IMG/VR virus record: IMGVR_UViG_3300047317_000085
Span: 1-42,014 of that record
Source of the DNA: a virus
Direction: 5' to 3' (one strand)
Length of the DNA: 42,014 nt
Below the pieces are notes generated by a model. That model ran no database searches, was not told the origin of the DNA, and saw nothing but the letters and a program-made list of their open reading frames with translations. This document shows, one piece after another, positions 12,583 through 42,014 of the stretch. Both the position numbers and the translations under genes were made by a program. The first letter of the stretch is position 1. Each line of letters starts with the position of its first letter.

Positions 12583-13131
12583 TTATGCGATGCCGTGGAA
12601 TTTTTTGTGAGCGATGAACTTTTGCGAAACGTAGTAGGCAAGCAGCGCGGCCTCGGCGCGACCCTGATCCTTCTTGCGGGCGAAATACTCTGAGCTGAAC
12701 GGAAACATCCGGTTCGCCATGGCGCGGCACTGCTCCTTGCCGTCAGGGCCGCCTTTCACCGACATGCCCTTCTTCCAGACCGTCGGCGTGACCAATGACG
12801 TCGGAATACCCAGCAGCGCCACAACAGTACGTGCCGTGTGGTAGGCACCGGAAAAGCGCCACGCTTGCATGACGCCGTCGCGCGGCATCGGGCCGACACG
12901 CTCGATGACGGCAAGCGTAGGCTTGTATCGCTTGATCATGCGGCTCAACTCGGCGGCGTTGATCTCGCCACCGACGACCGGCATGTCGTAGACCGACACG
13001 CGATCGATCGCCTCTGGATGATAAAACGCCATGGCGCCGGTGAGGCCGGGGTCGATGGCGAGGATGCAGAGCGTGTCCTTGAGCAGCGACGGTGTCATGT
13101 TGCGGAAGCCTTCCATGTCCTGTGACGTCAC
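12583..13131 (-). CDS. RuvC-like Holliday junction resolvase
   Basis: A 182-residue protein with the RNase H-like fold of RuvC. LAIDPGLTGAMAFYH supplies the first catalytic Asp (about residue 27), LAVIERVGPMPRDG the Glu (about 77), and KKDQGRAEAALLAYY the last acidic pair (about 155 and 160). WRFSGAYHTARTVVALLGIP lies between them, as in other phage RuvC-type resolvases. It should cut branched DNA before packaging. I use GTG at 13131: it overlaps the GcrA stop (GTGA) and has GGAGG 5 bases upstream. Internal ATGs at 13116 and 13098 are alternatives. Confidence 0.88.
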   Translation of the reverse strand: MTSQDMEGFRNMTPSLLKDTLCILAIDPGLTGAMAFYHPEAIDRVSVYDMPVVGGEINAAELSRMIKRYKPTLAVIERVGPMPRDGVMQAWRFSGAYHTARTVVALLGIPTSLVTPTVWKKGMSVKGGPDGKEQCRAMANRMFPFSSEYFARKKDQGRAEAALLAYYVSQKFIAHKKFHGIA

Positions 13132-13544
13132 GCGAACCTCCGTGAGTTGAATGCCATGTTGCAGTGTTTGGTGCAGTACGGATATTCGCCTTCTTTCTGC
13201 TCGCCGCAGAACAGGAAGGGCGAGCGGTCACCGATCGGCCAGCGGCAGTGGTGCGTCTGAAGATCCATGAGCGCGATCAGGCCGGGCGCCTTTGGCTTGG
13301 GGCGCAGCTTCTGCACCGGCTCCCTTTTTGTCGGGCGCCACTTGCGTTTGGGTGGTTTGCGCGGCTTGGCCCGCAGACCCTTCTGCATGCGCCGTGCCTT
13401 GCCGATACAGGCGTTCTTGGTCAGCCTGACGCTGAACTCGCGCGACAGGATCTTTGCCACCTCCTGATAGCTCAGGTCTTTGTCGCGCGTGAGTGCATCG
13501 AACCGCGAAACAATTTGCGGTGTCCAATCAACTTTGTGTCTCAT
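13128..13544 (-). CDS. GcrA-family transcriptional regulator
   Basis: A 138-residue protein resembling GcrA, the alphaproteobacterial cell-cycle regulator that binds sigma70-RNA polymerase at CcrM-methylated promoters. The N-terminus (VDWTPQIVSRFDALT, then YQEVAKILSREFSVRLTKNA, CIGKARRM) matches the DNA-binding helices. The middle is Lys-, Arg- and Pro-rich. The end, HHCRWPIGDRSPFLFCGEQ then YPYCTKHC, is the family's Cys/Trp-Pro-Ile-Gly signature. The start at ATG 13544 overlaps the stop of the HTH gene (ATGA); the longer frame reads through that gene and is rejected. It may redirect host polymerase to phage or host promoters. Whether it needs GANTC methylation cannot be told here. Confidence 0.87.
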   Translation of the reverse strand: MRHKVDWTPQIVSRFDALTRDKDLSYQEVAKILSREFSVRLTKNACIGKARRMQKGLRAKPRKPPKRKWRPTKREPVQKLRPKPKAPGLIALMDLQTHHCRWPIGDRSPFLFCGEQKEGEYPYCTKHCNMAFNSRRFA

Positions 13545-13777
13545 CGTTTTTTCCGTATGCGTTTTGGGTGGCGCATGGCCCAGAGCGTGTCCGGGATGAG
13601 AACCTCGTCCGTCACCAGCACGCGCATCCACAGGTAGTAATTGGCCGGAAATTTTTTCTTTGTTTTCCAATTACTTACGCATTGATGTGTGGTCTCGAAC
13701 AGATTTGCGAACGGCTCATTGCCGCCATAGTGATCAATGACTTGCTTGGTTGTCTGTAGGCACACAGGTGTTTTCAT
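13541..13777 (-). CDS. Cro/CI-like HTH regulator, apparently from a leaderless transcript
   Basis: A 78-residue protein. TKQVIDHYGGNEPFANLFET followed by QCVSNWKTKKKFPANYYLWM has the layout of a small Cro/YdaS-type helix-turn-helix. I start at ATG 13777; no good ribosome site precedes it. A promoter at 13812-13784 would start RNA at or within a base or two of the ATG, as for leaderless repressor messages. It heads the leftward trio with GcrA and RuvC and faces the rightward accessory operon across a 62-base gap. It is therefore a good candidate for the main repressor of the divergent promoter. A longer GTG-started frame (13816) exists but begins inside the promoter. Confidence 0.78.
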   Translation of the reverse strand: MKTPVCLQTTKQVIDHYGGNEPFANLFETTHQCVSNWKTKKKFPANYYLWMRVLVTDEVLIPDTLWAMRHPKRIRKKR

Positions 13778-13839: not shown

Positions 13840-14070
13840 ATGTCGCACATGACCAAGATCGCGGGCGTCCCCGACAAGGACCGCGCCAGACCCGGCATGG
13901 CCTACTTTGCCGGTTCAGGCCCGCCCCGCATGACCTGCGGCGAGTGCATTCACCGCAAGGACAGTAAACCTACCATCTGCATGATGTTCACCACCCTGAC
14001 GGGGAAGGTTGGCCCGCCGGTGCGTTCGCACTGGCACGCTTGCCGTTATTTTGAGGAGAGGATGAAATGA
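13840..14070 (+). CDS. Small Cys-rich, probably zinc-binding protein
   Basis: A 76-residue protein, first gene of the rightward accessory operon. MAYFAGSGPPRMTCGECIHR, a later Cys in PTICMMF and the final HWHACRYFEERM give four or more Cys and His that could bind zinc. I recognise the layout from other phage hypothetical proteins. AGGG lies 7 bases before the ATG; an internal Met at residue 4 is another possible start. It overlaps the next gene by 4 bases. Function unknown. Confidence 0.75.
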   Translation: MSHMTKIAGVPDKDRARPGMAYFAGSGPPRMTCGECIHRKDSKPTICMMFTTLTGKVGPPVRSHWHACRYFEERMK

Positions 14071-14438
14071 ACACCGCCATCGCACCGAAGCGCAACGGCA
14101 ACCAAGAGCAGACCTTGCCAGAGCACCGGCAGAAAACCGTCGAGGCTGGCCTCGCCACCTACCAGAAGGTGCTGGCGGAGCGCGACCATCTCGAGGTGCA
14201 GCTGCGCGATGCCACGCTTCGCATCGAGGCGCAGGTCGTGCAGCTCGACGCTCTCAAGGGCGTCGTCAACATGATGGAAAGCACCTACCTCTCCACCAAG
14301 CTGGAAATGGAGAACCGCGTGGCGCAGTATCAGGCGCAGCGTGACGATGCCGTGAAACAGGCGGCAGCGTTCGAGGCCACACTGACGAATATCTTCGCGA
14401 TGCTGTCTGACATCGTCCCCGGCATGGTCGAACGGTAA
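14067..14438 (+). CDS. Long coiled-coil protein
   Basis: A 123-residue protein starting in an ATGA overlap. Residues about 20-105 are an almost continuous coiled coil (LAERDHLEVQLRDATLRIEA, ENRVAQYQAQRDDAVKQAAA), with a short hydrophobic end (FAMLSDIVPGMVER). There are no Cys and no membrane segment. It might be a scaffold for a protein complex or a regulator partner. I do not recognise a family, and the operon gives little further clue. Confidence 0.75.
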   Translation: MNTAIAPKRNGNQEQTLPEHRQKTVEAGLATYQKVLAERDHLEVQLRDATLRIEAQVVQLDALKGVVNMMESTYLSTKLEMENRVAQYQAQRDDAVKQAAAFEATLTNIFAMLSDIVPGMVER

Positions 14439-14797: not shown

Positions 14798-14968
14798 ATG
14801 GCCACTGTTGGAATGTTGCCGCCAGAATATCTCGGGGCTGGAGAAATTAGAGACCGCTATTGGTCGCCGCCAAAGCCGCTGCCTTGGTGGCAGCAACCGC
14901 GCCATCTGAACGCTATGGCGTTGGGCGCAATCGCGGTTCTAATCGTCATCGGCATATATGGCCCTTGA
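14798..14968 (+). CDS. 56-residue protein with C-terminal membrane anchor
   Basis: A short gene with AGGGA before its ATG. The first 40 residues are polar and Pro/Trp-rich (YWSPPKPLPWWQQPR) and the last 17 form a membrane helix (MALGAIAVLIVIGIYGP). It is a tail-anchored layout. Its TGA is directly followed by the ATG of the next gene. Function unknown; a membrane partner for the next protein, which also has one membrane segment, is possible. Confidence 0.6.
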   Translation: MATVGMLPPEYLGAGEIRDRYWSPPKPLPWWQQPRHLNAMALGAIAVLIVIGIYGP

Positions 14969-15535
14969 ATGATCAAACGCCCCTGCCATGGTCTGCCGCC
15001 CGGTGCGCCGTGTCCCACCTACGAACGCGGGACATGGCCGCGCGACTGTACCTGCTATCAGGAGGCGCAGCCCGGCGGCTGGGCCGATCGCATTGTGCGT
15101 CGTTGGCTGATCGCAGCACTGGTTCTATGTCTTGCCTTCAGCTTCGTCATGATCAAGGCATTCGGCGCCGACGTAGATCCTAGTTGTCTCACACATGACG
15201 AGGCCGCGCGGCGCTATCCAAATCAATGGCTGTACTGGCACACAGTAAAACACTGCTGGGATAATCACTCGGGCCGCACCGCTATTCGTCACCCGGCGGC
15301 TCCCAAGACTGACAGGCTGCCGCCACCGGCGCCGTCGATCGACATGCCGGAAGGCCCGACAGTCGCCTACCCGTCATTGATGCCGGGGATTGGCAGCTCT
15401 GACAATATGTTGCGCCCAGATCCCATGACGATCTGGCCGCCAGTGTTTGATTTCGACGCAGAGCCACCATTGTTCATTCCGTGGCAGCAACGTGTGGTAT
15501 CGTCGTTACCGGCAGCTGGAGGCGGGCCGGAATAA
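14969..15535 (+). CDS. Membrane-anchored protein with Cys-Trp-His-rich exported domain
   Basis: A 188-residue protein. The N-terminal part has five Cys/His-type residues (CHGLPPGAPC, CTCYQ). A membrane helix follows at about 46-66 (WLIAALVLCLAFSFVMIKAF). The segment after it, CLTHDEAARRYPNQWLYWHT then VKHCWD, is a motif I have seen in unnamed Rhizobiales envelope proteins. The C-terminal half is Pro-rich and probably unstructured. It starts immediately after the preceding stop and lies just upstream of two PEP-CTERM genes, so the operon looks directed at the cell envelope. Function unknown. Confidence 0.72.
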   Translation: MIKRPCHGLPPGAPCPTYERGTWPRDCTCYQEAQPGGWADRIVRRWLIAALVLCLAFSFVMIKAFGADVDPSCLTHDEAARRYPNQWLYWHTVKHCWDNHSGRTAIRHPAAPKTDRLPPPAPSIDMPEGPTVAYPSLMPGIGSSDNMLRPDPMTIWPPVFDFDAEPPLFIPWQQRVVSSLPAAGGGPE

Positions 15536-15563
15536 AAGCCGCTGCCATCACAAGGAGACCATC

Positions 15564-16217
15564 ATGCGAAAACTGGGAATGCTGGCAGGTATCATCCTGC
15601 TGGGCGGTATGGGGGTGGTGCAAGCAGCCACGCTTGGACCGGACATCGCTACGGAAGGCCTCACCTATAATTTTTCGATTATCGGTGGCGCCCTCAACTC
15701 AACGTCAGCGACGTTTCAGGTTGAGATCACCGGCATCAATGTTGTCGGCACTGACACAAGACTTGGCCGCAGCGGCATCAACGCCTTTGCGTTCAGCACA
15801 CCAAACCTTCCTGCCATTTCGTCAGGAACCACCACGCTTGTCGGCGCCACCTTCCAGAGCACCGGACTGAACTCCGGTGGCTGTAGCAATGGCGGCGGGT
15901 TCTTCTGTTTCGGAAACACTGGTGTCGCTGGCACACCGGCGCTCGCTTCCGGCACAGTGATCGACATCGACTTCACGCTGAACTTGGCGTCGGGGAACTT
16001 CCTCGCGTGGGACCCAGCGTTCAAGATTGATTGGGCTGGAAACCAGAACAATTTCAGCCTCGTCTCTGAGACTATTCCACTCGGACCCAACGGGACGCCG
16101 TTCAGCAACCCTCCGGGTGAAACCCCACTCCCGGCAGCCGCTTGGCTGTTTGGCAGTGTATTCGGCGGCGGCGCACTGCTGCTTCGACGCCGGAAGAAAG
16201 AGAGGACCAATGCGTAA
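15564..16217 (+). CDS. Secreted protein with PEP-CTERM (VPLPA-type) sorting signal
   Basis: A 217-residue protein with three parts. It has a signal peptide (MRKLGMLAGIILLGGMGVVQ, cleaved near AA-TLG) and a beta-rich Gly/Ser/Thr-rich exported domain of about 160 residues with one Cys pair. The C-terminal tail reads TPLPAAAWLFGSVFGG, then a hydrophobic helix and RRRKKER. That tail is the VPLPA variant of the PEP-CTERM signal, recognised by an exosortase that cleaves and delivers proteins to the cell surface or polysaccharide matrix. No exosortase is encoded here, so the host must supply it. AAGGAG lies 6 bases before ATG 15564; longer upstream frames are rejected. It overlaps the next gene by 8 bases. 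Finding this in a phage is unusual. Confidence 0.85.
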   Translation: MRKLGMLAGIILLGGMGVVQAATLGPDIATEGLTYNFSIIGGALNSTSATFQVEITGINVVGTDTRLGRSGINAFAFSTPNLPAISSGTTTLVGATFQSTGLNSGGCSNGGGFFCFGNTGVAGTPALASGTVIDIDFTLNLASGNFLAWDPAFKIDWAGNQNNFSLVSETIPLGPNGTPFSNPPGETPLPAAAWLFGSVFGGGALLLRRRKKERTNA

Positions 16218-16803
16218 GGCTCTGCTTGCGATCGCCGCTGTGCTGGCAATGTCTGCCAGCGCAGTGGCTGACACCATCACCAGCTTGGGCACCAACCCGA
16301 CGTCTGGCGCTGGCGCCTTCTCCAATACCGATCCCGGTACTGGCTCAGGCGGCTCAGGTTTGTTTGCTGACATTTACAAGTTCGATCTCGTCGGCGCCCA
16401 GATCCTGACCATTGCGTTCGCCACCAACACGTTCGCGTCGGGTGCGCCGCAGTTCATCACCAACTTCCAAGGCGCGGTGGTGAACGACGGCGCAGACAAC
16501 GCTCCCGGTGGCGGTGATGACTTCGTGGTGCTCGGTCCTGAGTTGGCGGTGGCGTGTAATGCCATCCCGAATTGCCAAGTGTTCGGTGGTTCAGCGATAC
16601 TCGGTGGCGGCCACTATTACCTGCTCGTTTCCGGCAACGCTGGCGTCGATGCTGGCTACGGCGGCAACCTGAGTACGTCGGCGGAGACACCTCTGCCGGG
16701 CGCCATCTGGCTCTTTGGCAGCGCACTAGCTGCCTTCGGTCTGGTTACGCACCGCAAGCGGAAGGTTAAATCCGCTTGGGATATCAAAGCCATAGCGGCG
16801 TAA
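16210..16803 (+). CDS. Second secreted PEP-CTERM (VPLPA-type) protein
   Basis: A 197-residue protein overlapping the previous gene by 8 bases, with AGAGG 4 bases before ATG 16210. The signal peptide is MRKALLAIAAVLAMSASAVA. The exported domain (about 21-165) is Gly- and Asp-rich, includes GGGDDFVVLGPELAVACNAI and NCQVFGGSA, and resembles the domain types common in PEP-CTERM proteins. The tail TPLPGAIWLFGSALAAFGLV then HRKRK is a second sorting signal. The pair share layout more than sequence and may be distant duplicates. They may coat infected cells or modify the surface matrix; that is inference. A strong terminator follows at 16899. Confidence 0.84.
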   Translation: MRKALLAIAAVLAMSASAVADTITSLGTNPTSGAGAFSNTDPGTGSGGSGLFADIYKFDLVGAQILTIAFATNTFASGAPQFITNFQGAVVNDGADNAPGGGDDFVVLGPELAVACNAIPNCQVFGGSAILGGGHYYLLVSGNAGVDAGYGGNLSTSAETPLPGAIWLFGSALAAFGLVTHRKRKVKSAWDIKAIAA

Positions 16804-16898
16804 GCCGCTATCCCCGTTCCGCAGGTCTGACAGGCTCCCAAGCCGCGTCACGCACTCCCAACCCGAATGCGCCACACCCTGCGGGACGGGGTCATTAA

Positions 16899-16940
16899 AT
16901 AGGCCTCACAGTCACCATGACTGTGGGGCCTATATTTTTG
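16899..16940 (+). terminator. Intrinsic terminator after the accessory operon
   Basis: The arms ATAGGCCTCACAGTCA (16899-16914) and TGACTGTGGGGCCTAT (16918-16933) pair over 16 bp with one G-U pair and a 3-base loop, followed by ATTTTTG. This is a textbook rightward intrinsic terminator. The 95 bases between the stop at 16803 and the terminator hold a second, weaker inverted repeat (near 16810-16822 and 16879-16892) and no gene. The promoter at 16946 begins six bases after the terminator. Confidence 0.92.
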
Positions 16941-16945
16941 CCCAC

Positions 16946-16974
16946 TTGACACGGGGGTCAGGATGTCCTATACT
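16946..16974 (+). promoter_or_regulatory. Rightward sigma70-like promoter for the 17003 gene pair
   Basis: TTGACA (16946-16951) and TATACT (16969-16974) are 17 bases apart. The spacer has GTC, G, G and CC in the same columns as the promoters at 4220, 4288 and 5100. It lies directly after a terminator and 29 bases before ATG 17003, leaving little doubt that it drives 17003-17739. Confidence 0.88.
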
Positions 16975-17881: not shown

Positions 17882-18121
17882 TCATACGAGCAGAGACAGC
17901 ACGGGTCCGGCAGTGTGGTGCCCAAGTCGAAACCCGGCGCGAGGCAGCACCAGCTGCACAAAGATCAGGATGCAGACCAAGACGAAGATGACCCAGATGA
18001 TCTGGATAACCTTTGCCGGTACTGCTACACCGACGACGCTCGTCAGCACCCAGATGATCAGGTAGATCACCAGCGCCAGCAAACAAATATAAATCAGCGC
18101 GTAGATTACTGCTTCGATCAT
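17882..18121 (-). CDS. Holin-like small membrane protein
   Basis: A 79-residue protein with two membrane helices (about 4-27, IEAVIYALIYICLLALVIYL, and about 40-64, VIQIIWVIFVLVCILIFVQL), a short loop between them and a polar tail. It resembles small two-helix membrane proteins that phages use as holins. It lies at the end of the late operon next to lysis-type genes, so a holin is a fair inference. GGAGG sits 5 bases before ATG 18121, and this ATG overlaps the stop of the upstream gene (ATGA). It is the last gene of the leftward late operon. Confidence 0.75.
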   Translation of the reverse strand: MIEAVIYALIYICLLALVIYLIIWVLTSVVGVAVPAKVIQIIWVIFVLVCILIFVQLVLPRAGFRLGHHTAGPVLSLLV

Positions 18122-18423
18122 GGTCGCCTCCTCGGTTGGGCTGCACACTCACTCCGGTAAATTGCCGGGATCAGGTAATTGCCAACGGGGAGCGATGTGA
18201 AGCCGGGATCGTTTGGCCCGGTAGCGACAGCGATCGTCGGGTCGCATGACGTTCGCCGGATGAGATCGAATGCTACCGCCAGCGGCGGCACAGCAACAAG
18301 CGGCACGGCAGATGGTTGCTGTACCGGGACGTCTTTGTGGATACGAACGTGCGTGCGCTTGGCGTCAGCGTATCCCGGTAGAAAGATCACCAGCGCAGAG
18401 ACCGTAATCAAAAACTTTTTCAT
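18118..18423 (-). CDS. Exported small protein of the lysis-type cluster
   Basis: A 101-residue protein with a clear signal peptide (MKKFLITVSALVIFLPGYAD, cleavage after ADA). The mature part is Val- and Pro-rich at first (VPLVAVPPLAVAFDLIRR), then CDPTIAVATGPNDPGF and a second Cys near the end, possibly a disulphide. There is no lipobox, so an outer-membrane spanin lipoprotein is not indicated. I have seen similar exported proteins in Rhizobiales phages. It is coupled by overlaps on both sides (ATGA). A periplasmic role at lysis or in exclusion is possible. Confidence 0.7.
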   Translation of the reverse strand: MKKFLITVSALVIFLPGYADAKRTHVRIHKDVPVQQPSAVPLVAVPPLAVAFDLIRRTSCDPTIAVATGPNDPGFTSLPVGNYLIPAIYRSECAAQPRRRP

Positions 18424-19115: not shown

Positions 19116-19289
19116 TCACCCCGGCGCTGGCTTGGCGGCTGGCGGCGGCACATAGGGATCGGGCACACCACCGTCAGCGAGCCATTTGTCGTACTCAACG
19201 CGGTCACGGTTGGCCGGGTCGTTGGGAATGAACGCCTGATCGGCTGTGCGGATGACGATGTCGCTTTGTGTGAGTTGATATTCTGCCAT
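19116..19289 (-). CDS. Small fibre-associated protein, copy 2
   Basis: A 57-residue protein directly after the 392-residue fibre gene (stop and start share one base, TAATG). It begins [20 protein letters not shown], continues with [17 protein letters not shown] and ends in a Pro-rich tail (GGVPDPYVPPP). The first 32 residues are nearly the same as those of the gene after the larger fibre (20666), at the DNA level 78 of 79 bases. The motif DPANRDxxEYxxWLAxGxxPDP is common in small proteins beside phage tail fibres. It may be a fibre chaperone or accessory; this is inference. Confidence 0.75.
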   Translation of the reverse strand: MAEYQLTQSDIVIRTADQAFIPNDPANRDRVEYDKWLADGGVPDPYVPPPAAKPAPG

Positions 19290-19300
19290 TAGAGCCTCGC
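19222..19300. repeat. 79-bp direct repeat, copy A (with 20599-20677)
   Basis: Bases 19222-19300 and 20599-20677 differ at one position (T at 19281, G at 20658). Each spans the end of a fibre gene and the start of the following small gene. The offset is 1377 bases, the size of one fibre plus small-gene cassette. Such identity beside more diverged fibre sequence suggests a recent duplication or ongoing recombination. Confidence 0.93.
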
Positions 19301-20467
19301 ATCAAACATGATACCACCTGCACTTATTGCAGTGACGCAGCCTTGCCCGGCGCCGAACGTCGCCCCTGAATAAGTGACATCAAGCGTAGCTTGGTTTGGC
19401 CCCAATGAGCCGCCCGCCGCAATACTTGATGCAGGATTTGCATTCTGATTCATTGTGTTTGTCGTAAAGAGTAACAAATTTTTTGCCACTATTGTCGGAG
19501 AAGTACGCATAGCCGGTAGAAATGTAACGCCATGTCTGGCAAGCGTGGGGATTGGCGCAAATCCTGACAACGTCATGCCATCAAGACCTTGCAGATACCG
19601 TTTGCACGTCACCAACTCCTGATCGTAAGGCCGCATCACATTGGGCGACTGCGCGGCGGTGGGACCTTGATTGCCGGGGATGACGGTGACGCCTGTGATT
19701 AAGAAAACGTCGGAGGTTGCGGCGACGCCATTAATGGTCCCAGTCGCGCCGTAAAAAGACCCGCCGACCCATGAACCCGCTGCTGCCGTATACGACGTAC
19801 CTGCCATAAGCGTGATGGAAAGATTTATTCCGGCGCTATTATTTTTATTCCATGTCCCCGCCACATCGCCCGGCACGGTGATCGTTTTATATTCCCATGT
19901 GCTTACCGAGTTGATAGTAAACGTAAAGACATAAGACCGATTGAACGCCCCATTTTGTATCGACCCCGAATAAGTGCCAACCCGTCCGGCAGCAACCCAA
20001 AATGCAATGACAATTGACTGTGCGCCAGCCGCACCCCAACCGAGTTTAATTGTGCGGTATCCTTCGATTGGCTGGGCAATATAAACAATGTCACCGGCTG
20101 CCGGGGAACCATTGGCTGTCGTGATGTTCGTTTGTAGTTGATTTACAAAACCGGCAGGCCCGCCAGCCCCTTGCGTGCCGCCAATAACCTGCGGGCCGAT
20201 AGAACCAACCCTCCAGCCATCGACAATATATTTTGCCTGTCCCGTTGTTGATAAAACCGTACCTGCGCCATTCTCCTGACTCACCTCCATGCCGCCGTTG
20301 ATCTGCAATCCTGAGTACGCCATTGCGTCGAACGGTGCGTAGATGACGCCGCTGCTGCTGGTCACCGCCCACTTTTCGCCGTCCCATTTATAGACCGGCT
20401 GACCGGCAACCGGCGGCGAGGGATAAAGCTGGCCGATGCTGGGTGAGGTCGGAAAATCTAGCGCCAT
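19289..20467 (-). CDS. Second, shorter tail fibre/receptor-binding-like protein
   Basis: A 392-residue protein paralogous to the 626-residue fibre upstream. The N-terminus ([20 protein letters not shown], then [12 protein letters not shown]) is the same virion-attachment-like segment. The C-terminal part shares [35 protein letters not shown] and the end FDARL. It lacks the collar repeats between these parts. The central jelly-roll-like region (beta-rich, [20 protein letters not shown]) resembles carbohydrate-binding tail proteins. It may give the virion a second receptor or sit at another position. GGAG lies 8 bases before its ATG. Confidence 0.82.
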
Positions 20468-20666
20468 GGTTCAAACTCCGCGCGATTTTTTGCTGGTTGT
20501 TTCCGGTGCAGGTTTTGCCGCGCCGCTTGTCGCAGGATCGGGCGTGTTGCCCTGCGAACCAAGCCTCGTATTCAGCACGGTCGCGATTGGCGGGATCATT
20601 GGGAATGAACGCCTGATCGGCTGTGCGGATGACGATGTCGCTTTGTGTGAGTTGATAGTCTGCCAT
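20388..20666 (-). CDS. Small fibre-associated protein, copy 1, probably frameshifted
   Basis: As it stands the frame encodes 92 residues. After [20 protein letters not shown] and [15 protein letters not shown] it loses all resemblance to the other copy and runs 80 bases into the next fibre gene. In the neighbouring frame, just after the GGG at 20550-20552, the expected ending appears ([16 protein letters not shown]...). It stops at 20471-20473, 3 bases before the next ATG. A gain of one base or loss of two at this GGG would explain it. The original gene would then be 20471-20666, about 65 residues. Whether it is a mutation, a sequencing error or programmed slippage is open. Confidence 0.65.
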
Positions 20667-20677
20667 TAGAGCCTCGC
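20599..20677. repeat. 79-bp direct repeat, copy B (with 19222-19300)
   Basis: The second copy of the near-identical repeat, placed at the end of the 626-residue fibre gene and the start of its small partner gene. A crossover between the copies would remove exactly one fibre plus one small gene (1377 bp), leaving the remaining cassette intact. Confidence 0.93.
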
Positions 20678-22546
20678 GTCCATAGTCAGGGTCGTTAAAG
20701 CGCGTGTTGCCTGATATACAAACGGGCTAATTGCGCTTGGGCCGTTGATAGTGAACCCCGTACCGCCGCCGGTAAAAGTTGGTATAACTCTCATTTCAGG
20801 CGCTAAAAAAATTGACTGACCGGCAACTGCCACATCGACAACGCAAGTCATTTTTTGAAAATACCGCTTACACGTCACCAACTCCTGATCGTAAGGCCGC
20901 ATGACATTCGGTGACTGTGCGGCGGTGGGAGCTTGGGTGCCGGGAAGGACGGTGACGCCGGTGATGCGAAAATTATCAGTTGTTGCGGCAACGCCGTTTA
21001 CTTGACCGGGGGCGGCAACATAAATACCGGCAGTCCAAACATTTGCCGCTGGTGCTGTGTAGGTTGGCCCACAGGCATTTGCAAATTGTATTCGCATTCC
21101 AACGGTATTGTCTTTTGCCCACGTTCCAGACACATCGCCCGGAATAGTAACGGTTTTATATTCCCAAGCATCAGACACATTTTGAGTATAGGTCGTAGCG
21201 TATGAGCGGCTGTCGCCATTATTGCGAACAGAAACACTATAAATGCCAGTGCGAGTATGAGCAGTCCAAAAGCCAATCGTGATTGGCTGTGCGCTCGTCG
21301 TGCCCCACGCTAACCGCGCACAGCGATAGCCTTCAATTGGTTGAAAAAAACTATGAGTTTGTGTTCCAGTAATAGTTGCTTGAGGCGTTGTTGTTTTTGC
21401 TACTATTGCAAAGGGAGTGCCGGGAAGGCCAGAACTAAAAACATTCGCCGGTCCTGTACCCGTTGTAGAAAAGTTATAAATCCAACCGTCGCAAACATAA
21501 CCTGACGCGACTATACCTGTTCCGGCTATAAATTCTTGACTGACATCCATCCCGCCGTTGATCTGCAATCCTGAATACGCCATCGCATCGAACGGGGCGG
21601 CGTAAATGTTTTGCCGCGCCTGTTGCTGCTGCGGCGCTGTTAAGGATTGCGAAATGTCATAGCGCACAACGGTACTGTTGAGCGCGTAGGCAGAACTATC
21701 GATCGCCGGATACGTCGTCACCCACTGCGTAGATGTTCCGTCATTGTAGCGAATGAAAAGTATGCCGGTGTCGCTCTCCCACCATAATGAATTGTCGGGT
21801 GCTGTTGGCGCCGTGTCTGCAATCAGAACCGATGCGCCACCGCCACCGCCACCGCCGGTGGCTACTTTATTGTCAACGTACTGCTTAGTGGCGGCCCCCA
21901 GCACAGCTGACGGATCTCCGTTTAACAGCAGCGGCCCGGTCATGGTGTCGCCGCCCTTGCTGACCTTGCTGGTGCCTACGCTGTCGGCGTATTGTTTTGT
22001 CGCCGCTCCAAATCCGGCGGTGGGATCTGCCGATAAGATCAGCGCACCAATCATGGTGTCGCCAGCCTTGGCGATTTTTCCGCCCAATCCTCCGTCAACG
22101 TATTGCTTGGTAGCTGTGCCAAGACTTGCGACAGGGTCCGCCGCCATGAGCAGAGGCCCGGTCATGGTATCGCCAGCGCGATTTACCTTGCCGGTGAGAG
22201 CGCCGGAAATGACGCCATCAGCGTACTGCTTGGTGGCCGCCCCCAGCGCGACAGACGGGTCAGCCGCCAGCACCAGCAGCCCGGTCATGGTGTCGCCGCC
22301 CTTGGCAACGCGGCTGCTGTCTGATGGGTGAATGTGGTCGTCGCGTGAGCCTACGGTGGATGTGCCGGGAGCCGCCGTCCCATTCATTAATGGAGGTACG
22401 TTTGACAGCCCCATGCCGCCGCCGATAGGTAACGTGAATGTCGTCCACTTGAGGCCGTCCCAAGTATAGACCGGCTGCCCCGGCACCGGAGGTTGCGGGT
22501 AAAGGTCGCCAATGATCGGATTATTTGGAAAGTCGAGCGTGGCCAT
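20666..22546 (-). CDS. Tail fibre with collar repeats
   Basis: A 626-residue fibre. The attachment-like N-terminus is [20 protein letters not shown] then [12 protein letters not shown]. Residues 80-235 hold four collar-type repeats of the form [20 protein letters not shown] followed by ATKQYVD, typical of trimeric fibres. A Gly-run precedes an [20 protein letters not shown] domain. The C-terminal 300 residues are beta-rich with [13 protein letters not shown] and end MDARL. It probably binds the host surface. It overlaps the upstream Cys-rich gene by 26 bases and shares its ends with the 392-residue fibre. Confidence 0.88.
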
Positions 22547-38568: not shown

Positions 38569-38979
38569 CTACCGTCTGGTTCTACGTCTGGTTCCGCTGG
38601 CAGCGCCAGCCTCCATGAACGTGAACTCGACCTCGTTGGAGACCTTGTCGCCGTTCTTGACCGTGACCGGCACAGTGTCCGGTCCAAGCCAGAGCGGCAT
38701 GTTGATGCCGGTGGACAGTCTGCCGTCGTCCTCCAGCGTCGTCAGCTCGTCGTTACCGGCAAAGTTGATGACGCTGCCAGCGAAGAAGAACTCTCCGCTG
38801 AGATAGATCCTGAAGCTGGCATCACCGATCGTGCAGCTCGACGGGTCGATCGATGTGATCGCTGGCGTCGGGATCTCGCCGCCCATGTCCGGCAGCTTGG
38901 GCGGCTCGTTGATGCTGGCGGGCAGCACCATGGTGGTGCGGCCCGGCCCGTCCGGTTCGTTGATGCTCTTGATGCTCAT
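38569..38979 (-). CDS. Ig-like (IPT/TIG-type) domain protein, possible capsid decoration
   Basis: A 136-residue protein. After a start with two SINEP motifs (SIKSINEPDGPG, ASINEPPKLPDMG) comes one Ig-like domain. PAITSIDPSSCTIGDASFRI, then GEFFFAGSVINFAGN and VPVTVKNGDKVSNEVEFTF have the strand pattern and the closing SNxxxFTF of IPT/TIG domains. The C-terminus is Arg-rich. Such domains often decorate phage heads or tails and bind cell-surface sugars weakly. It overlaps the preceding Ig-like gene by 4 bases. Confidence 0.77.
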   Translation of the reverse strand: MSIKSINEPDGPGRTTMVLPASINEPPKLPDMGGEIPTPAITSIDPSSCTIGDASFRIYLSGEFFFAGSVINFAGNDELTTLEDDGRLSTGINMPLWLGPDTVPVTVKNGDKVSNEVEFTFMEAGAASGTRRRTRR

Positions 38980-39617
38980 GTGAATGTCCAGTTGCTGGCG
39001 GCAGAGCCTACGCCGCTGTTGACGACCTGAACGGGGACGGCGCCAGCCGTTGCCTTCTTGGGCGCGGCGGCGACCGTGAGCGATGTGGCGGAGACATAGG
39101 TGGTGGCTTGCGGTGTGCCTCCGACGTAGACCTGCGAGTTGCGGGTAAAGTTTGCGCCGGTGACCGTGAGCGCCAGCGTGCCGACGCCGCTTGCCGGTGA
39201 TGCCGGTGCCAGTGCGCTGATCGTTGGCGCCGCTCCGCCCGTCAGTGACGATGCGTGCGAGGCATTTGGCGTGGTGGTGTAGTTACCCAGATCCGAAACG
39301 GTTTGCAGCTGACCGCCGGGTCCGGGGTTAACGCTGGCTGCCGTCACCACCACCTCAGTGCCAGCGCCTTCGTAAGGTGCGCCGCCCGCGCTGGGTGTAG
39401 CGAATGCCGTGAGTGCGCCAGCCGCGCCGTCGTCGATCGGCGTGAGGCCAGCTGTCGTCGGCGGTCGCATGCCGATCTGGCCGGGAATGTTCGTCGGCGG
39501 CGTCGGGCCGTCCGGCGTTACCGTCGTTGCGCTCTGCGCCAGCGGATTGACGACTACGTCTCGCTCCTCAACCTCTGGTTCGTGTTCGTGCCTTCGTGTC
39601 GTTGCCTCTTTAGCCAT
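38976..39617 (-). CDS. Second Ig-like (IPT/TIG-type) protein, possible capsid decoration
   Basis: A 213-residue protein. The first 130 residues are Pro/Thr/Ala-rich and may be an attachment or flexible arm (PEVEERDVVVNPLAQSATTV). The last 80 form a clear IPT/TIG domain: PTISALAPASPASGVGTLAL, TVTGANFTRNSQVYVGGTPQ, and VQVVNSGVGSAASNWTFT. It is followed in the operon by a second protein with a similar domain, so the two probably act together at the virion surface. Position before the scaffold gene is compatible with a head decoration role. Confidence 0.8.
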   Translation of the reverse strand: MAKEATTRRHEHEPEVEERDVVVNPLAQSATTVTPDGPTPPTNIPGQIGMRPPTTAGLTPIDDGAAGALTAFATPSAGGAPYEGAGTEVVVTAASVNPGPGGQLQTVSDLGNYTTTPNASHASSLTGGAAPTISALAPASPASGVGTLALTVTGANFTRNSQVYVGGTPQATTYVSATSLTVAAAPKKATAGAVPVQVVNSGVGSAASNWTFT

Positions 39618-40984: not shown

Positions 40985-42014
40985 GGCGGCCTCCCGGCAC
41001 TGCTGTTGCCTGTCGCGTCATCTGGAACTGCTGCTGGCTGCGTCGATCCTCCTGCCGCATCGACATATCCGTCAGCTTGGCATTATGCGCCTGTATGCTG
41101 GCGTCTGCCTTCTGCTGGTTGAGCGCCATGTCCTGCTGCTTGCCAGCCATCTCCATCTGGTGCGCCTCGCGGCTCTCCAGCAGCTTCTGGTTCTGCACCG
41201 CCAGCTTTGCCTGTGCGTCCTGCGATGACATGCCCTGATCGACCTGCTTGAGCGCGAACTGGGCGTTGATGTCGGCCTGTTTGTGCCGGTCTTTCTGCGC
41301 CATCTGCTGCTGCGCGATCTGACCTTCCTGACTGATCTTCTGGCGCTCGGTCTCCTGCTTCATGTTCTCGATCTGCAACGCCGTCTTGGCGTTGATCTGC
41401 GCCGGATTGTTGTTGCTCTGGTCTTGGTTGCCCTTCTGCTCCATCTGCTGCACGAGGTCGTCGATGGCGCCGTCGAGCGTGCGCCCGGCACGGAATGGCG
41501 CGGTGGCGAACTTGAGCAGCTCGCCGCAGAACGATGCCGTCTGCGGCTCCGCCGTGATCATCATCGACAGCTGCGGCAGCAGCGTACTGAGCACGCCGAC
41601 GAACTCGGTGCGCCTCTGCTTCTCGGCATTCTCGTCGGCTTGGATGGTGCTGTCGGTCTCGATGTCGAGCACGAATGACTTGGTGCGCTGGTTCTTCATG
41701 AACTGGAGCACCTGCTCGATCGTCGGCTTCTCCGCCAGCTTCTGGATGGCTTGGTTGGCGCCCTGCTGGACCTGCTGGAACTGCTGCATCGCCTGTTGAC
41801 CGGCTTGCGGGTTCTGCTTCGCCATCTGCTGGATCTGCGGCGACTGCATCAGCTGCTCGGCCTGTTGCTGCTGCGCTTGCATCTGCTGCTGGATGTTGGC
41901 GATCTGCTTCCTGATCAGATCCTGCGTCGGCAGCTGCGTCTGCGACATCTCGATGATCGTCACCGGATCGAACTTTTCGGTGATGATCTCTGCCGTGATC
42001 TCGACGAGGTCACG
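40977..42014 (-). CDS. Portal protein, C-terminal part (continues from base 1)
   Basis: This is the continuation of the portal frame that opens at 1455. At 42014 the frame is open on its left side, and bases 41871-42014 duplicate 1-144, so the non-overlapping part is 40977-41870. It is strongly Gln-rich and helical: IANIQQQMQAQQQQAEQLMQ, QAGQQAMQQFQQVQQGANQA, then a mixed region and another long Gln/Lys helix to the end. A long helical C-terminus is like the barrel of P22-type portals. An internal ATG at 41963 is not a real start. Confidence 0.87.
   Translation of the reverse strand, partial: RDLVEITAEIITEKFDPVTIIEMSQTQLPTQDLIRKQIANIQQQMQAQQQQAEQLMQSPQIQQMAKQNPQAGQQAMQQFQQVQQGANQAIQKLAEKPTIEQVLQFMKNQRTKSFVLDIETDSTIQADENAEKQRRTEFVGVLSTLLPQLSMMITAEPQTASFCGELLKFATAPFRAGRTLDGAIDDLVQQMEQKGNQDQSNNNPAQINAKTALQIENMKQETERQKISQEGQIAQQQMAQKDRHKQADINAQFALKQVDQGMSSQDAQAKLAVQNQKLLESREAHQMEMAGKQQDMALNQQKADASIQAHNAKLTDMSMRQEDRRSQQQFQMTRQATAVPGGRRG
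41871..42014. repeat. Terminal overlap, right copy (pairs with 1-144)
   Basis: The same 144 bases as at the start of the window, with G at 41888 where the left copy has T at 18. Removing one copy gives a continuous portal gene of about 782 codons and a circular map of about 41,870 bp. Confidence 0.93.

Follow-up and report, generated by a model that had tools for sequence, protein, structure and literature searches.

Why would a phage encode proteins that end in the sorting signal of a bacterial exosortase system? Bacteria use this signal to direct proteins to the cell surface or into their slime. Substrates of exosortases are familiar from cellular genomes, and their roles are mostly obscure. 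The stretch of DNA analyzed here, referred to as the window, corresponds to an entire IMG/VR virus record (42,014 bp) from a podovirus-like soil phage, in which an initial annotation had pointed to two tandem, overlapping genes for secreted proteins with exosortase-type tails. The reading preferred here, to which a probability of about two in three is assigned, is that the phage supplies the two proteins (P1 and P2) as substrates for an exosortase of the host, and that infected cells show phage proteins on their envelope or matrix.

Organization of the cassette and its sorting signals

The tandem arrangement was borne out: P1 and P2 overlap by 8 bp (16210-16217), both carry exosortase-type tails, and both have good ribosome-binding sites (AAGGAG for P1 and GAGAGG for P2). 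The features of the region are as follows.

13131-13670, minus strand: GcrA-like regulator (PF07750 GcrA, 62.3 bits, E 9e-17), flanking the cassette operon
13544-13774, minus strand: Cro/YdaS-like HTH gene, putative switch (PF14549/PF15943, E ~5e-5; phrog_409 transcriptional regulator, E 2e-5), divergent from the cassette operon
14067-14438, plus strand: ORF123, coiled-coil-like, conserved first member of the cassette, with homologues beside tailed genes in 14 loci
14798-14968, plus strand: small 56-aa protein with a C-terminal hydrophobic stretch, seen from sequence; no family match
14969-15535, plus strand: ORF188, one hydrophobic segment followed by conserved C-terminal regions; partner of tailed genes
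15564-16217, plus strand: P1, 217 aa; signal peptide, exported beta-rich core, VPLPA-type tail at residues 187-213
16127-16201, plus strand: tail-coding segment of P1, exchanged as a block (14 differences to contig G001)
16210-16803, plus strand: P2, 197 aa; signal peptide, FxDxF-PEP-CTERM-like core, VPLPA-type tail at residues 160-187, C-terminal extension KSAWDIKAIAA
16899-16933, plus strand: intrinsic-terminator-like hairpin closing the operon (16 pairs, 8 of them G-C, then a T-run)
16946-16974, plus strand: promoter-like site of the next transcription unit (TTGACA-17-TATACT, consensus match only)

No promoter-like site was detected directly upstream of P1, and a terminator is present downstream; the two genes thus appear to be the last of an operon that runs from about 13.8 kb, divergent from the Cro-like gene. 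The proposal that the pair shares an operon with membrane proteins and that a strong terminator closes it is supported. The conserved regions of ORF188 read C..(Y/W)PxxWLYWHxxxxCWD and DFDxxPPxFIPW, and the protein has no match in Pfam, NCBIfam or PHROG. The GcrA-like cell-cycle regulator adjoins the Cro-like gene, and its homologues lie close to tailed genes in several other contigs. Further downstream, a small exported-looking protein is encoded on the minus strand (18121-18423; MKKFLITVSALVIFLPGYADAKRTHVRIHK...), with conserved counterparts close to the cassette in 7 loci.

The N-termini of P1 and P2 are hydrophobic, K/R-started and signal-peptide-like, and a scan of hydropathy and charge found an N-terminal signal peptide in 54 of 58 proteins, these two included. 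The tails, ETPLPAAAWLFGSVFGGGALLLRRRKKERTNA in P1 and ETPLPGAIWLFGSALAAFGLVTHRKRKVKSAWDIKAIAA in P2, consist of the motif TPLPxAxWLFGS, a hydrophobic helix and a basic cluster, which is the C-terminal arrangement of the VPLPA-CTERM/PEP-CTERM signal. The expected match to curated models held only in part. P2 resembles the VPLPA-CTERM model TIGR03370 (17.4 bits, cut-off 25.35) and the FxDxF PEP-CTERM model NF038126 (31.6 bits, cut-off 50; residues 6-183 on model positions 1-165), and it scores 13.6 bits against PF07589 (cut-off 20.7). P1 has no match to the FxDxF PEP-CTERM or VPLPA-CTERM models, its sole match being the LPXTG anchor model TIGR01167 (13.6 bits, cut-off 15.9). With P1 unmatched and P2 under the curated cut-offs, neither protein is a formal member of these families.

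At the level of the family, all eight rows of the P2 alignment match the FxDxF PEP-CTERM model over almost its whole length (best E 3.9e-12), and four members weakly match the model of the flocculation protein PepA. The structure model of P2, of low confidence (pLDDT 56), is weakly similar to PPC/collagen-binding and CBM35 folds, with no match at E<=0.001. The PepA match and the PPC- and CBM35-like folds are treated as leads only for what the protein might contribute. The structure model of P1 was discarded as unusable (pLDDT 32).

The phage genome and its likely host

The two ends of the record (1-130 and 41885-42014) overlap almost identically inside the portal gene, and the portal ORF spans both; the genome therefore closes and is essentially complete, the IMG/VR class being linear. 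Terminase, portal, major head, tail-fibre and primase/helicase-like genes are recognizable, and no tRNA and no XerCD dif-like site was found. A protein with an IPT/TIG (Ig-like) domain is encoded within the structural module (38979-39617). In addition, the ends of two tail-fibre genes (19122-19303 and 20566-20680) match the same place in contig G004, which suggests from sequence an exchangeable fibre tip common to both phages.

GcrA is an alphaproteobacterial family. Together with the GcrA-like gene, a capsid relative (61%) in a Rhizobiales genome points to an alphaproteobacterial host, and Alphaproteobacteria are the likely host class of this phage. The closest named phage by capsid, also at 61%, is Rhizobium phage RHph_I3_18. 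One misaligned capsid row (L095, 17%) was left out before the host search.

Spread, mobility and tail exchange among phages

Relatives of P1 and P2 were found in eight further contigs, and P2-type cores in about 25, with identity down to 39%. A survey for the same tail in other phages, suggested at the outset, was productive: written as a degenerate DNA pattern, the tail matched 74 IMG/VR contigs, in which tandem pairs are common. The matches lie almost all at the C-terminal end of a protein, at a median of 34 aa before the stop, at least three basic residues follow the pattern in 80 of 82 matches, and a reversed control pattern had no match in 397 Rhizobiales genomes; taken together, these results indicate that the pattern does not arise by chance. 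The tailed cores belong to many unrelated families, and the same P2 core occurs beside different first genes. Searches of INPHARED phages with P1 and P2, of PLSDB plasmids with P2 and of the genome contigs with P1 gave no match; the consensus tail also had none in INPHARED, where low-complexity filtering may mask matches. In six contigs (L023, L035, L043, L049, L086 and L087), some of up to 119 kb, a small tailed protein (VPVPGAVWLFGSALVGFVTISRNRKSK) is encoded near two other exported proteins, and this group is apparently a separate lineage.

The cassette, made up of a coiled-coil ORF, a one-pass membrane ORF and one or two tailed proteins, is present in phages with unrelated virion genes. 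The siphovirus-like contig G004 (50.6 kb) lacks the capsid family of the window and has virion genes unrelated to it, and resembles it mainly over 15158-16811 (73.7% nt) and 14115-14393 within ORF123 (72% nt), besides a few short stretches; in the P1 core, 2% of nonsynonymous sites differ. The window capsid family is present in 9 of 50 carriers. ORF123 and ORF188 recur upstream of tailed genes, and a search seeded with ORF188 recovered 21 viral loci, with one or more tailed proteins adjacent in 18: a protein with signal peptide and VPLPA tail follows within 2.5 kb downstream in 16, and a pair lies immediately upstream in two. Among the remaining loci, L292 has its tailed protein elsewhere on the contig, one is cut by the contig end and L293 has none. 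The ORF188 profile had no match in 209 Rhizobiales, an uninformative result for want of a positive control. The accessory genes occur in phages that are unrelated and differ in their virion genes, as the initial description of a moron-like cassette implied, and ORF123 and ORF188 probably act as a pair, a helper or regulator whose passengers can be exchanged. Further passenger types, not among the seeds, stand beside ORF188 in L275, L283 and L291 and point to more unsampled exported cores.

The P1 and P2 cores are under strong purifying selection, with dN/dS of 0.013-0.024 and 0.07-0.11, respectively (Nei-Gojobori; dS ~0.65-1.0). The tails behave differently from the cores. In contig G001, which is about 98% identical to the window, there are zero differences in 15446-16126 and 16202-16957, so that 1.5 kb differs solely in the P1 tail (tail versus core, Fisher p = 2e-13). 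Among clearly diverged cassettes, the tail is more divergent than the core in most pairs, and tails such as RGAWDDLPRVDFLPK or KSAWDI are found on unrelated cores. Every relative keeps the tripartite tail though its sequence changes. The confinement of differences to the P1 tail and the reuse of tails on unrelated cores indicate that the sorting tail behaves as a recombining module.

Possible sources of an exosortase

No exosortase was found in the complete phage genome of the window or in 50 further tailed contigs (0 of 51 phage records), which upholds the initial observation that the virus encodes substrates and no enzyme, and suggests that the host's enzyme is probably used. XrtD (TIGR04152) is the VPLPA-specific exosortase. 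The search in the predicted host group was favorable in part: XrtD is among the enzymes found, but only 21 of 397 Rhizobiales species have an exosortase at all. TIGR04152 scored above cut-off in Rhizobiales and other alphaproteobacteria (G403, G279, G108, G075, G087, G488, G784 and G614), G488 having XrtD together with a PLPAAAWLFG tail. Furthermore, within the Rhizobiales, VPLPA-CTERM proteins are found mainly in genomes with an exosortase (16 in G087 and 12 in G075), and the exosortase-bearing genomes G788 and G784 encode cellular proteins that resemble P2 along almost the full profile. Among alphaproteobacterial genomes with P2 profile matches, 10 of 12 have an exosortase, a weak contrast and mild evidence given that 4 of 10 arbitrary alphaproteobacterial controls have one too. 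The W-L-F-G tail variant was found in three of 397 Rhizobiales, and no exosortase was detected in these three, whose drafts are possibly incomplete; the rarity of this form in the order suggests that the phage may have its true host among species beyond those sampled.

Proposed route and alternative explanations

The architecture of the pair, its conservation and mobility, the exchange of its tails and the missing enzyme in the phages are established at the level of sequence. By the established rules of such signals, the signal peptide would direct Sec export of P1 and P2, and the tail helix and basic cluster would keep the proteins anchored to the inner membrane, their core being periplasmic and TPLP lying at the outer face of this membrane. 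An exosortase of the host, most likely one of the XrtD kind, would then cleave at or near the motif and pass the core to the envelope or exopolysaccharide. The resulting phage-made layer could alter the surface of the infected cell or, in relatives, of the lysogenic cell, most likely by excluding competing phages or changing aggregation. Display on a carrier cell, as originally envisaged, is a weaker prospect for the window phage, in which no own promoter was detected before P1 and no tyrosine integrase was found (nor in G001 or G004), but the enzyme is present in three of 39 carriers, all of the window capsid family and with the tailed gene or genes downstream of it. The cassette may be active while a cell is infected, in a carrier state without integration, or in lysogens of these cousins. 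A broader version, in which phages widely use host exosortases through a mobile ORF123-ORF188 cassette with interchangeable exported passengers, the same passenger being fitted to different hosts' exosortases by tails swapped as modules and coating infected cells, is offered tentatively and falls somewhat short of even odds.

Counted against the host-exosortase reading are the sub-threshold scores of P1 and P2, the few Rhizobiales with an exosortase, the three Rhizobiales with W-L-F-G tails in which none was detected, the exosortases among the control genomes, the residues that follow the basic cluster in P2 and many relatives, and the lack of a tyrosine integrase in the window. Alternatively, the tail may be a membrane anchor only, keeping P1 and P2 in the inner membrane on its periplasmic side, where they would block DNA injection by superinfecting phages or tune lysis with no exosortase involved. 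The anchor-like geometry of the tail and the lack of the enzyme in the phages and most Rhizobiales fit such a role; however, a plain anchor has no need of the conserved P-[LI]-P-[AG]-x-x-W-x-F, which is kept across unrelated cores and is common to cellular tails from exosortase-bearing genomes, and this explanation is considered unlikely. A different question is whom the display would serve. Rather than phage exclusion, it might benefit the community or matrix through flocculation or biofilm, as conversion genes do, an alternative to the benefit and not to the sorting route. The weak PepA matches of four P2-family members, the PPC/collagen-binding and CBM35 likeness and the position of the tailed genes behind the integrase of temperate cousins speak for it, but the P2 structure is of low confidence and 36 of 39 carriers searched show no tyrosine integrase, leaving this benefit possible and rather doubtful.

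Host genes picked up by transduction as mere passengers, of no use to the phage, would account for the distant relationship of the P2 core to cellular PEP-CTERM proteins; strong purifying selection, conservation of the cassette in unrelated phages and a near-identical core in complete phages make this very improbable. Fusion of host to phage DNA in the contig could be suspected from the linear label of the record, but the genome closes through its portal ORF, the 98%-identical contig has the same arrangement and the cassette recurs in many contigs, so that the chance of an artefact is negligible.

Comparison with known systems

Under the host-exosortase reading, repeated recruitment by phages, conserved cores and swapped tails would mark the exosortase-made surface as a phage-host battleground. 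Proteins of the P1/P2 type would also offer small, testable exosortase substrates, and if tails track the exosortase type of the host, they could help to predict hosts of uncultured soil phages. The sorting signal and the moron logic are known; their combination is unreported in the open-access literature searched, in which no report of phage-coded exosortase substrates was found in titles and abstracts, one related match concerning host genes in Microcystis.

Like proteins with the VPLPA-CTERM signal (TIGR03370), P1 and P2 combine a signal peptide with a C-terminal motif, helix and basic cluster, and the cognate exosortase XrtD (TIGR04152) occurs in some members of the likely host class. They differ in being phage-coded, in scoring under the model cut-off, in their W-L-F-G variant and in having no enzyme in the same genome. 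Unlike textbook tails, P2 and many relatives have 8-20 residues after the basic cluster. The P2 family fits almost the whole model of the FxDxF PEP-CTERM proteins (NF038126), but it is phage-borne, and the P2 of the window reaches 31.6 against 50 bits. The founding description of the PEP-CTERM/EpsH system concerned mostly single-gene operons in cellular genomes with EpsH, and phages were unmentioned (Haft et al., 2006; PMC1569441); the tripartite tail, the signal peptide and the diversity of cores are the same here. Ltp of phage TP-J34 is a phage surface lipoprotein for superinfection exclusion (PMC3952083). Phage surface lipoproteins of this type are the closest functional analogue, in a comparison of how the proteins would work only: both would be phage products at the host cell surface, Ltp held by a lipid anchor and P1 and P2 sorted by an exosortase-type tail.
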